Source: Pararhizobium mangrovi
GTDB taxonomy: Bacteria; Pseudomonadota; Alphaproteobacteria; Rhizobiales; Rhizobiaceae
Reading direction: 5' to 3'
Assembly: GCF_006516965.1 (NCBI RefSeq)
Contig: NZ_VHLH01000002.1
Span: forward strand, 62,001-126,000
DNA: 64,000 nucleotides
Shown here: positions 41,976 to 49,641 of the stretch, piece after piece
Position numbering within the stretch: position 1 is the first letter of the stretch
Layout of the letters: every line of letters begins with the position of its first letter
The notes under the pieces: model-generated
Seen by the model: the letters and a program-made list of their open reading frames with translations, nothing else
Told to the model about the DNA's origin: nothing
Databases searched by the model: none
Position numbers and translations under genes: made by a program

Positions 41976-42620
41976 CTACTCCGCCCGCGTTTCGGTCCGC
42001 GCCCGCTCGGCGTCCAGCACCTCGAAGCGCGCATGGAAGCGAGCCTGCGCCTCGCCCGGTGCAAGCGGATCGATCGGCAGGTTCTCGTGCGTCACCGGAC
42101 CCGGCCGTCCGAAGAAGGCCAGCGCCTCGCTTTCCGTGAACCCGGCGAGCCGCGTCGCTTCGAAATAGGCGCAGATCTGGTCGGCCCGCTTGATCCGGGC
42201 AAGAAGCGTGGGGGAAAGTTCGCCGGGGAGGGCGAAGCGCAGGTGGATCGCCGTCGCAAGCCGCTTCTCGACGGATTTGTATGCACCCCCCATCACGGCC
42301 TTGAAGGGCGAGATCATGTCGCCGATGACGTATTCCGGCGCATCGTGCAGGAGCGCGATCATCCGTTCTTCGGCCGTCGCCTTGCCCGCGATCATCGCGA
42401 AGGCGATCTCGACGGCGAGCGAATGCTGGGCGACGGAATAGGCCTGATCTCCGACCGTTTGTCCGTTCCAGCGCGCGACCCGGGCGAGCCCGTGGGCAAT
42501 GTCGCCGATCTCGATATCGAGCGGCGAGGGTTCGAGCAGGTCGAGCCGCCTTCCGGAAAGCATACGTTGCCAAGCGCGAGGCGCTGTCCTGTCGCCCGTT
42601 CGGGACGTCCTGCCGCTCAT
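41976..42620 (-). CDS. HD-domain phosphohydrolase (YfbR-like)
   Basis: 214 residues; ATG 42620 overlaps the ygfZ stop by four bases, which fixes the start. The HD residues are in SVAQHSLAVE, with LLHDAPEYVIGDMISPFK, and a third ligand region KRADQICAYFEATRL, the pattern of YfbR-type 5'-nucleotidases. It probably removes phosphate from a nucleotide monophosphate, but the substrate is not shown. It is the second gene of a tight operon. Confidence 0.88.
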   Translation of the reverse strand: MSGRTSRTGDRTAPRAWQRMLSGRRLDLLEPSPLDIEIGDIAHGLARVARWNGQTVGDQAYSVAQHSLAVEIAFAMIAGKATAEERMIALLHDAPEYVIGDMISPFKAVMGGAYKSVEKRLATAIHLRFALPGELSPTLLARIKRADQICAYFEATRLAGFTESEALAFFGRPGPVTHENLPIDPLAPGEAQARFHARFEVLDAERARTETRAE

Positions 42621-43462
42621 GCGGGCCGGGCGTCGGCGCTCGCTTCGAGCGTCAGCCCGCTCCATGCCGGAAACCGAACCCGGACCGGAACGCCATCGAC
42701 GGTCAATACTTCGCCGGCCGCAACGGCTTCGCGAACCCGGTCGGCCCGGACGAGGGCGAGCGCCTGCGTTCCTTCGCAGGTCCCGAGCGTGCCGACGGAC
42801 CGGCCCGTCGCCTCGAGCGCATGACCCGTTACGAGAGGCGCGTCACCATCGAGGATCGCGATCCGACGGCGTGCGGTCCCGCGGTGCTGCATGCGCGAGA
42901 CGACTTCCTGACCGACGAAGCAGCCTTTCCGGAACGAAACGCCGCCGTTCAGATCCATCAGGACGTCGTGCGGAAAGGCGTCCGAAAGCGCGAAATCACT
43001 ACCCGATTCGGCCACCCCGTCGCGGATACGCAGCGCGGCGTATTCGCCGGGATCCGCCTTCTGCGTTTCGGGCGGGTTTTCTTCGTACACGCGATACACC
43101 GGCGTTTCGGAGAAGCGCGTATCGTGGATGCCGTTTTCCGGGGCCTCGCCCCAGACGACGGCGATCGCGATATCCTCGACTTCGGCGATCTCGACCTTGG
43201 CGCGCAGCTTGTAGAGCGTCAGCCGCTTGAGAAGGCCGGCCGCGTTCTCGCGCGCAGTTTCGAGGTGAAAGCCGTGCGGACCGGTGCGCGAGATCAGGAA
43301 ATCGAAAAGGATCTTGCCCTGCGGCGTCAAAAGGGCGCCGGGCCGGGCCTCGCCGGCGGGAAGCGATGGCAGGTCGGGCGTGATGACGCCCTGCAGCAGC
43401 GATTCGGCATCCGGGCCGGTGACGGCGAGAAGGGCTCTGTCGCTGAAGCGCAGTCCGGACAT
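42617..43462 (-). CDS. ygfZ: Folate-binding protein YgfZ/CAF17-like (GcvT fold)
   Basis: 281 residues from ATG 43462, with GAAGG upstream. The family signature KGCFVGQEVVSRMQHRG is intact near residues 178-194, including the conserved cysteine; TPQGKILFDFLI lies in the N-terminal part. YgfZ uses tetrahydrofolate to support assembly or repair of certain iron-sulfur enzymes. It heads the operon ygfZ-HD-phosphatase-nadQ. Confidence 0.93.
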   Translation of the reverse strand: MSGLRFSDRALLAVTGPDAESLLQGVITPDLPSLPAGEARPGALLTPQGKILFDFLISRTGPHGFHLETARENAAGLLKRLTLYKLRAKVEIAEVEDIAIAVVWGEAPENGIHDTRFSETPVYRVYEENPPETQKADPGEYAALRIRDGVAESGSDFALSDAFPHDVLMDLNGGVSFRKGCFVGQEVVSRMQHRGTARRRIAILDGDAPLVTGHALEATGRSVGTLGTCEGTQALALVRADRVREAVAAGEVLTVDGVPVRVRFPAWSGLTLEASADARPA

Positions 43463-43566
43463 GATCGATCGACCTTCGTTCGTTGGCGACGTCCGTGCGA
43501 AAGGCATCGGTAAGCGCAGGTAGGCGCCATGGCCACAATGAGCAAGATCGGGCCCGGTTCCTGCGA

Positions 43567-44313
43567 TCAGTTTCCTGCGAGGAAGAAGCTCCACCGGCCG
43601 TCCGGCGTGATGCCGAGACGGAAGAAATCGTAACCGCCGGTCGTCTCCTGCATGTTATCGAGATCGCCGGCGGTAACGATGCGCAGGAGCTGCACGCGCT
43701 GCGCCGGCCCGAGCGTCTTCAGCGGCTTGGCGAAGAAATAGGGCCAGACATAGGTCTGCTCGCCATTGCCGACGTCCATCCTCGCATAGCCTGCATCGAG
43801 GATATCGAGCATGATCGCCAGGACCTCGCGTCCGTCCGGATCGCCGGAAAGGCCTTTCAGGTAGGCGATCGGGTCGCCGGTCCGTCCGCTGATCGCAAGC
43901 TGCGTTGCGGCCCGACCCTTGTCGAGAAGCGGACGAAGCTTTTCGATGTCGCCGGTGCGCGCCGCTTCGACGATGAGTTCGCGCATGCGGCGCACTGGCT
44001 GCGGCAGTTGCGAAAGATCGTGCGAAATGATGGGTGCGGTCGTGCCTTTCGTCTCGGGAGAGGCAGCATCGTCTGCGCCATCGTCGTCCGAGTCCGCGTT
44101 CGGCGCGGGCGTGCCGTGCCCCATCCCGGTTTCGGGCAGGCCTGCGCCGGCATCGGAACGGTCGAGGTCGCCCGGACGTCCGATCGTGTCGGGAGGGGTG
44201 TTCGTCGCAGCGCAGGCCGGGGCCGAATACGTCACGGCAAGCATGATAAGGGCGGCCGACACGCAGAAGGCGCCGTGCCGGTTTCGGGCCGATCGTCTGG
44301 ATGGAAGCGACAC
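43567..44313 (-). CDS. Exported protein of unknown function
   Basis: 248 residues. A signal peptide (about residues 1-35, ending SAPACA) is followed by an acidic, probably unstructured link and a folded C-terminal domain of 150 residues that includes LREIL-type helices and DPDGREVLAIMLDILDAGYA, then TYVWPYFFAKPL and a final GITPDGRWSFFLAGN. I recognise it only as a conserved hypothetical exported protein of rhizobial type. It lies 104 bp upstream of ygfZ on the same strand. Confidence 0.75.
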   Translation of the reverse strand: MSLPSRRSARNRHGAFCVSAALIMLAVTYSAPACAATNTPPDTIGRPGDLDRSDAGAGLPETGMGHGTPAPNADSDDDGADDAASPETKGTTAPIISHDLSQLPQPVRRMRELIVEAARTGDIEKLRPLLDKGRAATQLAISGRTGDPIAYLKGLSGDPDGREVLAIMLDILDAGYARMDVGNGEQTYVWPYFFAKPLKTLGPAQRVQLLRIVTAGDLDNMQETTGGYDFFRLGITPDGRWSFFLAGN

Positions 44314-44366
44314 GTGCGGACCCCTTGTCGAGCGGGCGGGCGGTTTCAGCCGGCCGCTCGCGCGCC

Positions 44367-44636
44367 TTATTGCAACGTACGCTCGGGCGAGAACTCGCCG
44401 GAAAGGATGCGATCCTTCAGCGTTTCGATCAGCGCCTGGGCGACGTCCTCGCCGTGCAGGCGCACCGTCTCGCGCATGGCATGCGCAATGGCCGCGTCGG
44501 CGATGATTTCCGGCTCGATGCCATCGGCGACCCCGTCCGCCCAGGCTTCGTTCTGATTTTCGATGGCGACCTGCCGTTTCTCGTGGACGATCATCTCTTC
44601 GATGTCGCTTCGGCCGTGATCCTGTGTGCGTTCCAT
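44367..44636 (-). CDS. Small conserved hypothetical protein
   Basis: 89 residues, acidic, almost entirely helical in look (IVHEKRQVAIENQNEAWADGV, AAIAHAMRETVRLHG). No signal peptide, membrane segment or known motif. The gene lies 53 bp upstream of the exported-protein gene on the same strand. Function unknown. Confidence 0.65.
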   Translation of the reverse strand: MERTQDHGRSDIEEMIVHEKRQVAIENQNEAWADGVADGIEPEIIADAAIAHAMRETVRLHGEDVAQALIETLKDRILSGEFSPERTLQ

Positions 44637-44747
44637 CAGGCCTTCGATACTCCTTGCGTCACACTGAAGTGGGGCGAACCCACGAACGATCTAGCACGAT
44701 CCCTCCCGATTCGGCACGACCCGGAACGCCGATCGGTAAACGATCCC

Positions 44748-45185
44748 CTAATTTCCGTACTTTCCGGCAATCCCGCGCGCGATCGTCGCGCCCCGCTGCC
44801 GGTATTCCTTCTCGGCGCTCACGGCCGCCTGCGTGCATGTCGAGTAGACGGCGGCGAAGGCGCGATATCCGCGGTTGAACGCGGCGGTCAACGTGCGTGT
44901 GCGTTCCTTGTTTCCCGCCGCTTCGCTGTCGATCAGGTTCTGCATCGTGTCGCGCCAGTCCGTGTCGTCGTCGGACTTGCAGAGATCGCGCAGATAGTCG
45001 ACCGAGCCGAGGATGCGCGAAAGCTGGATAAGCTGCGCCTCGTAGGGCGGGGCGGCCGGTCCGCTCGGCGCCGGTGCCGGCGTTTCCGGCGCATCTGCGG
45101 CCCGGCCCGTGCCCGGGACGGCAACGGCCAGAACGAACACGAAGAGCACGCTGGTCAGGGAATGAAGGGCAGGGCGGATGCGCAT
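44748..45185 (-). CDS. TIGR02301-family exported protein
   Basis: 145 residues from ATG 45185. A signal peptide ends near GRAAD. The folded part has LSRILGSVDYLRDLC and W-R-DTMQNLIDSE, then a conserved FNRGYRAFAAVYSTC and the tail EYRQRGATIARGIA. These marks match TIGR02301, a family known only in alphaproteobacteria, without an assigned function. Two cysteines could form a disulfide in the periplasm. Confidence 0.83.
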   Translation of the reverse strand: MRIRPALHSLTSVLFVFVLAVAVPGTGRAADAPETPAPAPSGPAAPPYEAQLIQLSRILGSVDYLRDLCKSDDDTDWRDTMQNLIDSEAAGNKERTRTLTAAFNRGYRAFAAVYSTCTQAAVSAEKEYRQRGATIARGIAGKYGN

Positions 45186-45237
45186 GCCTTTCCGTCTGCC
45201 TGAAGAAAGTGGCGACGGCAAGCCGGTCGCCCCCTGG

Positions 45238-45669
45238 TCATCGCTCGCCGTCCAGTGCGGCGATGCAGGCATGCACGCTCTCCGGCATTTCGAGGTCTTT
45301 CGATTGCGCGGCCGTGTACCAGCCGAGCGCCGCCGCATCGTCCTCGGCTCGAGCTTCGTCCTCGTCGTCGACGGTCACGCGAAAGACGGTGAGGTGGAAG
45401 CGATGCCCGGCGGGATCGTCGGGCGAAGGGGCGATGTCGTACTCGGCGTAGGCCACCGGATCGCGTCCGACGAGGCCCGTCTCCTCGCGCAGTTCGCGCA
45501 AGACGGCCTGTTCGCGCGTTTCTCCGGGTTCCACGCGACCACCGGCGAAGGCATGCTGACCCTGGATCGGCGGTCGTCCACGCTCCACGAGGAGGAAGCG
45601 GTCGCCACGCCGGACGATCGCCGATACGGCTTCCAGCGGCTTCGCAGAGGCATCGCTCGGATCGGACAT
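45238..45669 (-). CDS. Nudix hydrolase
   Basis: 143 residues from ATG 45669. The Nudix box is GRVEPGETREQAVLRELREE followed by TGL near residues 44-66, fully conserved for GX5EX7REUXEEXGU. Nudix enzymes cleave nucleoside diphosphates linked to another group; the substrate here is open (ADP-ribose or a damaged nucleotide are possible). It is divergent from the SRAP gene. Confidence 0.9.
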   Translation of the reverse strand: MSDPSDASAKPLEAVSAIVRRGDRFLLVERGRPPIQGQHAFAGGRVEPGETREQAVLRELREETGLVGRDPVAYAEYDIAPSPDDPAGHRFHLTVFRVTVDDEDEARAEDDAAALGWYTAAQSKDLEMPESVHACIAALDGER

Positions 45670-45778
45670 CGTTTCGCCTGCACGCTGGTCGGAAGGAGAC
45701 GCATGCCCTACCATCCGTCTCGCCCGGCGCAAACCTTCGCGCCGCCGGAATGATTGTCACGTTTAAGCTCGTCTGACC

Positions 45779-46576
45779 ATGTGCGGCCGATTCGCCCTGA
45801 CCGATCCACCCGAGGCGGTGGAAGCGCTTTTCGATCTTTCCGATATCGAGGCGTTTCCGCCGCGATACAACATTGCGCCGAGCCAGCCGATCCTGCTCGT
45901 GACGCACGGTGAAAACCCGTCTCGCCCCAGGGAGCGACATGCGCAATTGGCGCGATGGGGGTTGCTGCCTTCCTGGGTCAAGGACCCGAAAACGTTTCCG
46001 CTGCTCTTCAATGCGCGCTCAGAATCGGCGGCCGAGAAGGCGTCGTTCCGTGCGGCCATGCGCCACCGACGCGTGCTGGTGCCAGCTTCGGGATTCTATG
46101 AATGGCAGCGCTCTGCGAAGGGGCGGCGTGCGCAACCCTACTGGGTTCGCCCGGCGGCCGCAGGACCGATCGCCTTTGCCGGACTGATGGAGACGTTGCA
46201 TTCGGCCGACGGCAGCGAGCTCGACACGGTCGCGATCGTGACGACGGCGGCCAACCGCAGCTTTGCGGCCATTCACGACCGCATGCCCGTGACCGTGGCG
46301 CGTCGGGATTTTGCGCGATGGCTCGATTGCCGGCAATATGCGCCGAACGACGTCGCCGATCTAATGCGACCGGCAGCGGACGAAGCTTTCGAGGCCATAC
46401 CGGTTTCAAGCCGCGTCAACGCCGCGGCAAACATCGATCCGGACATCCAGAAGCCGGTCGACGTTACGGAACCGTCCGGCCACGAGACCGACCCGAATGC
46501 CGCGCGGGAAGAGACGCCACAGGATCGCGCAAGCGCCCATACGGGCCATCAGTTGCCGCTGTTCGACGAAGGCTGA
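45779..46576 (+). CDS. SRAP/HMCES-type abasic-site DNA-protein crosslinking protein (YedK family)
   Basis: 265 residues. Catalytic Cys2 is in MCGRF; PPRYNIAPSQP, LLFNARSESAAEK, ASGFYEWQ and IHDRMPV are all SRAP marks. SRAP proteins covalently cap abasic sites in single-stranded DNA. The domain ends near residue 215 and a polar tail of about 50 residues ends in QLPLFDEG; QLPLF fits the QL[SD]LF-type sliding-clamp-binding pentapeptide. Human HMCES has a PCNA-binding motif near its end, so the tail may recruit the protein to the replication fork. That last point is inference. Confidence 0.93.
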   Translation: MCGRFALTDPPEAVEALFDLSDIEAFPPRYNIAPSQPILLVTHGENPSRPRERHAQLARWGLLPSWVKDPKTFPLLFNARSESAAEKASFRAAMRHRRVLVPASGFYEWQRSAKGRRAQPYWVRPAAAGPIAFAGLMETLHSADGSELDTVAIVTTAANRSFAAIHDRMPVTVARRDFARWLDCRQYAPNDVADLMRPAADEAFEAIPVSSRVNAAANIDPDIQKPVDVTEPSGHETDPNAAREETPQDRASAHTGHQLPLFDEG

Positions 46577-46605
46577 TTACCGCCCGGCCGGATGGCCGGC
46601 GGCGC

Positions 46606-46809
46606 TCACTTCTGCTTCTGCTTGGAAAGGCTCGCCCGGCCCTCGCGCGAGGACGAAGGCGTATGGGAGGCAAAGCCCTTGCTGGCGTGCTTTTCCTTGA
46701 GTTGCCGCGACATCTGCGCGGCACCCAGAACGCCCTTGCATGCGACCTTGCCGTAGTTCTTTTCCAGTTCGAGCTCGCGCTTGCGTGCCGTCTTCGTGTC
46801 GTCCGTCAT
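46606..46809 (-). CDS. Small basic conserved hypothetical protein
   Basis: 67 residues, rich in Lys, Arg and Ser (TARKRELELEKNYGKVACKG at the N-terminal part, SREGRASLSKQKQK at the end). No known domain. Its conserved-looking core and convergent position with the SRAP gene make it a likely real gene, but the function is unknown. Confidence 0.55.
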   Translation of the reverse strand: MTDDTKTARKRELELEKNYGKVACKGVLGAAQMSRQLKEKHASKGFASHTPSSSREGRASLSKQKQK

Positions 46810-47221
46810 GGTTCAGATCTCCCGGCCATGCCACGTTCGGCAGGCACGGTCATGTGCGTCGTGTCGATGATCGCCGCCGCACCATCACGCGTCGTGCGAA
46901 GGCGGATCTTGTCTGTCGTGACAATGAGTCTGATTTTAGCTGAAAATGCGACGATGTCACGCAGTTGCTGGTACTGGTTTCCGCGCGCGCACGATGTGTG
47001 GGGCGACGGACCGGCCGGGGCGGATTGCCGCGGCTTGACCCATCGGCGGCAAAACGCCATAAGACCGGCATGAAGACGCGGATCTGCGGCCGGGCCGCCT
47101 GCATTTGCCGGATCATTATTCGCTAGCATCCTCGCTGGCAGGGCCGCTTTTCGTCTTTCGTTCTTCCTCAACAGACAAGCGATCCGGCCAGCCGGAGACG
47201 TCGGCACGGGAGACGAACGAC
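46810..47221. other. 412-bp gap upstream of cysS
   Basis: No supported gene. Open frames here are shadows without motifs. It holds the cysS promoter; I see no T-box or riboswitch-like structure. Confidence 0.5.

Positions 47222-49641
<2,420 letters not shown>

Follow-up and report, generated by a model that had tools for sequence, protein, structure and literature searches.

Proteins of the SRAP (SOS response-associated peptidase) family become crosslinked, via Cys2, to abasic sites in single-stranded DNA. This chemistry was worked out on YedK from E. coli, a protein of 222 amino acids that belongs to Pfam family PF02586 and ends in ...GAELIQPV. In human HMCES the motif is a PIP box, which serves PCNA, and not the QxxLF of beta-clamp clients. 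The conserved residues of the family are Cys, Asn, Glu, and His (PMC3765255; this and most of the other papers cited here are represented by excerpts of their text). SRAP genes are enriched near polB2, and in the PolB2 mutasomes the clamp motif is of the type that suits the cell's own clamp (PCNA in archaea, and the beta clamp once transferred to bacteria); this motif is found in PolB2 or in iRadA, and the excerpted text describes none in SRAP itself (PMC11791011). SRAP-like proteins that are linked to UmuC have been proposed to be partners of Y-family polymerases and show a conserved association with UmuC-like polymerases (PMC12926913), whereas the SRAP that we describe here has a candidate clamp motif of its own. 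In the literature that we searched, where subscription journals are thinly covered, we found no paper that describes a bacterial SRAP with a clamp motif. For example, the available text of PMC3765255, on SRAP, never mentions the clamp, PCNA, DnaN, or a tail, and PMC9436759, on YedK, never mentions the clamp, the replisome, or PIP and mentions PCNA once, in the title of a reference.

The consensus for binding the beta clamp was given as QL[SD]LF and later as Q-phi-x-[LM]-[FL] (a review published in 2024 and a research paper from 2026; PMC11139829 and PMC13254535), and it is also given as QxxLF (PMC12926913). Position 2 of the motif is more tolerant of changes than the Gln is, although binding sometimes survives a change of the Gln (PMC11139829, PMC13254535). 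Among the clients known to use such a clamp-binding motif (CBM) are polymerases, along with a polymerase-like hub and a protein of mismatch repair, and the protein that we consider here is a SRAP with the same pentapeptide consensus. Experimental precedents for the QLPL- and -LPLF forms come from two of these clients. In mycobacterial ImuB, mutation of QLPLWG abolishes focus formation (PMC10421592). In C. crescentus MutS, DLPLF is required for association with the replisome but is dispensable for the activity of MutS (PMC8034640).

The features of the SRAP gene are listed in Table 1, with positions in the window (the entire stretch of 64,000 nucleotides that was analyzed).

Table 1. The SRAP gene and the parts of its product, in window coordinates.
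Feature	Positions	Strand	Details or basis
SRAP (SOS response-associated peptidase) gene	45779..46576	+	265 aa; only SRAP match in genome
SRAP domain, residues 1-215	45779..46423	+	Pfam PF02586
Polar linker of variable length, residues 216-257	46424..46549	+	Alignment conservation, AlphaFold2 pLDDT
QLPLF, candidate beta-clamp-binding motif, residues 258-262	46550..46564	+	Codons, translation, conservation
DEG, short acidic extension past the motif	46565..46573	+	Translation

The match to PF02586 scores 232.1 bits (the curated cut-off is 27.1) and agrees with the preliminary description of this DNA, which was made without database searches and which considered the domain to be complete by about residue 215. 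YedK has the same domain and is homologous to residues 1–226 of the window's protein, but it lacks both the tail and the motif. The SRAP domain of HMCES (PDB 6oe7) was matched in two blocks. The protein begins with MCGR, so Cys2 can be exposed. It also has Asn78, Glu108, and His166, and by analogy with YedK, we take these four to be the candidate catalytic residues. All four columns are invariant in an alignment of 108 related proteins. In a larger set of 175 proteins (described below), Cys2, Glu108, and His166 are each kept in 173 and Asn78 is kept in all 175; a cruder text pattern for the four residues together matched 147 of the 175. By analogy with the rest of the family, the window's SRAP would be expected to form the crosslink itself.

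At the other end of the protein, the codons cag ttg ccg ctg ttc encode QLPLF, and the translation ends with ...GHQLPLFDEG. This confirms the earlier placement of the motif, which lies three residues ahead of the stop codon. The proposed fit to the clamp consensus also stands, as QLPLF matches Q-phi-x-[LM]-[FL]. A proline at position 3 has precedent in ImuB (QLPLWG) and in C. crescentus MutS (DLPLF). An acidic residue right after the motif is favorable in Pol III alpha (PMC11139829), and in the window's protein the motif is followed by an aspartate. We also considered whether QLPLFDEG could be a PIP box, and we rejected this because the consensus, QxxhxxFF (PMC4929162), is not matched: there is no aromatic pair at positions 7–8.

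We then asked how often the motif is present in related SRAPs. By "same family" we mean Rhizobiaceae in the GTDB sense, as inferred from named matches. Of 121 same-family genomes that we searched, 113 have a SRAP match; among the eight that do not, six are just 1.1–2.0 Mb and two are of normal size. We read the main copy from 95 of the 113 genomes, and 93 of these 95 have a terminal Qxx[LMIF][FLIWY] (the exceptions are L338 and L339). The motif lies within three residues of the C-terminus in all 30 of the best same-family loci (L001/L002 and L004–L032) and in all 80 of the best loci from the genome_contigs collection, which includes Rhizobium, Mesorhizobium, Ensifer, and Phyllobacterium among others and is in part metagenome-assembled. 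To lessen the bias towards best hits, we added 60 lower-scoring members of the family, and all 60 have the motif. If we pool both collections with a few extra copies and remove duplicates, so that only distinct proteins are counted, then the motif is present in 173 of 175 proteins, and in 168 it is exactly C-terminal. In the other five of the 173, including the window's, the motif is followed by 2–3 residues (the proteins end in FDEG in the window, FGQG twice, FDD, and FGQ).

The search pattern itself fixes the Gln at position 1 and the residue classes at positions 4 and 5, and within those limits position 4 is L, F, or M and position 5 is F, L, or I in the 173 proteins, while position 3 is varied. 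At position 2, all of the first 108 distinct proteins and 164 of the 173 have L or M, and the remainder of the 173 have F, G, or P. Judged by sequence, these substitutions obey the published rules for clamp binding.

The linker that leads up to the motif behaves differently. In the alignment of 108 proteins (all of which contain the motif and have lengths of 249–278, with gaps counted against conservation), the mean frequency of the commonest residue is 0.76 for the motif, 0.24 for the linker (residues 226–255), and 0.79 for the domain (residues 1–222). In other words, the motif is kept while the linker before it drifts. Residues 216–227 are still fairly conserved and are modeled confidently, and conservation is poor beyond them. 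In an AlphaFold2 model with an overall mean pLDDT of 76.2, successive blocks of residues 211–260 have values of 82, 87, 55, 49, and 37; confidence is low from around residue 231 (blocks of 37–55), and residues 249–265 are under 50. Residues 73–82, near Asn78, are also poorly modeled, and as the underlying alignment had just 31 rows, low pLDDT is weak proof of disorder. Given this model, the tail is probably disordered. The preliminary description had put the motif at the very end of a flexible tail: the tail is indeed likely to be flexible, but DEG comes after the motif.

We used several controls for chance matches. When the tails were shuffled, the expected number of terminal motifs was 0.09 for the best same-family set (30 of 30 observed) and 0.34 for the genome_contigs set (80 of 80 observed). 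The loci that we fetched contain 1,082 other stop-to-stop frames that are 200 codons or longer, of which three end with the loose pattern and one with the strict pattern; many of these frames are not genes, and the one strict match comes from a locus that was fetched for the motif. (The strict pattern admits M at position 2, which makes it wider than the L/I/V/A given in the excerpted text of PMC13254535.) Finally, we searched the organism's own genome for a DNA pattern that encodes Q-[LMIF]-x-L-F and is followed by TRR (a stop codon or TGG). There were three such sites, as compared to eight in the reversed control, so endings of this kind are not generally enriched in the genome.

Aligning SRAP C-termini had been suggested as a check on QLxLF, and conservation turned out to be strong in the family and the order and to fade outside of the Alphaproteobacteria. 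In other families of the same order, 73 of the 90 SRAPs that we read have the motif. In other orders of the same class, the motif is present in 34 of 70 and absent in 36. (The counts for the order and the class cover mainly the higher-scoring of the places listed.) For the phylum, where many places are omitted and where the set also takes in SRAPs from the family, the order, and the class, the motif is present in 15 of 45 (48 were fetched and 3 were not recognized by the profile). Outside of the class but within the phylum, it is present in just 5 of 25 (28 fetched, 3 unrecognized), and one of the five is a weak match, QKPLW. Among divergent copies and paralogs, it is present in 4 of 15 and absent in 11 (20 fetched, 5 unrecognized); one of these four, L321, ends in QEDLLNAA, which is probably due to chance. 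The forms of the motif across these relatives include QLDLF, QMSLF, QGSLF, QASLF, QGELF, and QFDLF, and the SRAP of S. meliloti ends in QMSLF. On a FastTree tree that was built from the domain only (233 rows from 258 loci, after unrecognized, duplicate, low-scoring [under 60], and short [under 195 amino acids] rows were dropped), the motif is present in 152 of 233 rows, with 36 changes of state.

Some class-level SRAPs (L146, L150, L155, L156, L158, and L284) have ends without a Gln that resemble P-x-L-[FLI] (APRLL, APRLI, APQLI, EPKLL, and APTLF). By analogy with DLPLF of C. crescentus MutS, these may possibly be degenerate clamp motifs.

From 1,863 plasmid and 58 phage matches, we read 10 records individually, including one from S. 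meliloti and one from an archaeon. The QxxLF end is absent from the SRAPs of a Bacillus phage, of four plasmids from actinobacteria, and of one plasmid each from Klebsiella, Agrobacterium, and Deinococcus (the last of which probably has a broken frame). In viral contigs, there was a single distant SRAP locus, and it does not have the motif.

The window's SRAP gene is flanked by a NUDIX-like gene and by cysS. An order of YgfZ, NUDIX, SRAP, a small open reading frame, cysS, and prolyl aminopeptidase is common to the S. meliloti record (L351) and to positions 42617–49641 of the window, where the open reading frames were read by eye. The S. meliloti record has extra genes as compared to the window, with three GFA genes separating cysS from the aminopeptidase. 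To look for the SOS box of a LexA-regulated gene, we took a stretch of 220 bases at the start codon: no exact match to a GTTC/GAAC box with a spacing of 7 bases was found in any of 80 relatives or for the window's SRAP, and the recA locus of the same genome, which served as the control, is likewise without such a direct repeat.

The preliminary description had read QLPLF as a clamp motif, and this is supported by the conservation of the C-terminus, the low confidence of the tail, and the precedents for QLPL- and -LPLF. We consider it very probable that QLPLF is a CBM that tethers an abasic-site-crosslinking SRAP to the replisome. In the mechanism that we propose, the intact SRAP domain would use Cys2 to form its crosslink at an abasic site of single-stranded DNA, and a flexible linker of some 30–50 residues would connect the domain to the clamp-docking peptide. 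The QLPLF peptide would dock in the hydrophobic pocket of DnaN, the beta sliding clamp. Once docked, the abasic-site shield would remain at replication forks or post-replicative gaps, which is where abasic sites come to be exposed in the single-stranded template. A docked SRAP might also exclude translesion polymerases from the same pocket of DnaN. The genome has a single match to DnaN, which can be aligned over its full length to clamps of known structure; in these alignments, it keeps ATDGHRL, FPDYxRV, and YVLMPMRV, segments that belong to the canonical pocket. As YedK has no tail, docking on the clamp is unnecessary for the chemistry of the family. Because the activity of C. crescentus MutS is independent of its motif, loss of the motif from the SRAP may give a mild phenotype.

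Short motifs are able to bind other partners. The tail might bind some other replication or repair protein (for instance, a subunit of the clamp loader or of a polymerase), or it might dock onto its own SRAP domain. Pol III alpha offers a precedent for a peptide of this kind with two partners, as its C-terminal CBM binds tau as well (PMC11139829). However, the motif fits the consensus for the DnaN pocket, and docking on the domain is unsupported by the model, in which the confidence for the tail is very low, so we view another partner as quite improbable. We would give slightly less credence to the idea that the terminal peptide is a C-degron or a processing signal that governs the turnover of the SRAP or of the crosslink that it forms with DNA. 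Degrons are often found where this peptide lies, at the far C-terminal end of a low-confidence tail, but in five of the 173 motif-bearing proteins, including the window's, the 2–3 residues after the motif would mask it. Also, a Gln with L/F is the clamp consensus and is unlike the known C-degrons for ClpXP, which are small residues.

The remaining explanation, which we consider the least probable, is that the motif is a functionless inheritance or arose by chance. The sampled genomes are related, and their proteins are not independent counts, which would favor inheritance. But the motif has been retained in 173 of 175 proteins, and in other families and orders, even as the linker diverged. Chance is unlikely because of the results from shuffling the tails and from the background frames.

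A radical-SAM protein of family TIGR03916 (rSAM_link_UDG), which NCBIfam names a putative DNA modification/repair radical SAM protein, is encoded in the same genome (L342, positions 1504–2712 on the minus strand, which corresponds to approximately 4228–5440 of contig C18 in genome G000). TIGR03916 was found in 30 of 61 same-family genomes. Among the 30 same-family loci (L369–L398), all 28 of the recognized copies end with Q[LMQ]xL[LF], and in 27 the motif is exactly C-terminal. From these endings, the TIGR03916 protein is likely to be a second clamp client. A narrow literature search found nothing on this, and the one frame next to the radical-SAM gene that we scanned for a partner had no NCBIfam match.

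Haloarchaea use PCNA as their clamp, and SRAPs from haloarchaeal plasmid records have a different ending. All 12 of the intact proteins (L346, L356–L362, and L364–L367) end with QSGL[DG][EH]F, and the next residue is S, T, N, or G. The ending agrees with the PIP consensus QxxhxxF over its first seven positions (PMC2737543, PMC4929162) but has no second aromatic residue. As the 12 proteins are close relatives and the second aromatic residue is absent, we treat the PIP-like end as a lead; it is possible that PCNA recruits the haloarchaeal SRAP. In another record (L363, from Halorhabdus tiamatea pHTIA), the SRAP frame stops after 30 residues, yet a tblastn match covers all 228 positions in one piece, so the record probably contains a premature stop. 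In 9 of the 13 records (L346, L356, L357, L359, L360, and L364–L367), the SRAP gene adjoins a convergent gene of the Cdc6/Cdc18 family; most of the haloarchaeal records were read with only 100 bases of flanking sequence.

The candidate motif of the window's SRAP would follow the same logic of recruitment as the PCNA motif of HMCES. It could be that recruitment of the shield arose separately on both clamps, with a QxxLF end for the beta clamp in alphaproteobacterial SRAPs and, for PCNA, a PIP-like end in haloarchaeal SRAPs and the PIP box in HMCES, and with the rhizobial clamp recruiting the TIGR03916 protein as well. We would put this a little short of an even chance. If it is correct, then the SRAP domain has been tethered repeatedly to whichever clamp a cell has, which resembles the proposal for the PolB2 mutasomes that moved from archaea to bacteria (PMC11791011).

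A conserved CBM-like tag suggests how bacterial SRAPs reach the replication fork. As YedK is tailless, studies of it cannot reveal docking on the clamp. In laboratory rhizobia such as S. meliloti, the conserved candidate CBM makes the question of recruitment directly testable. If the SRAP does dock on the clamp, then the traffic on the clamp would gain an abasic-site shield that shares its pocket with the translesion polymerases, and this would be a simple mechanism for shielding to compete with mutagenic bypass.
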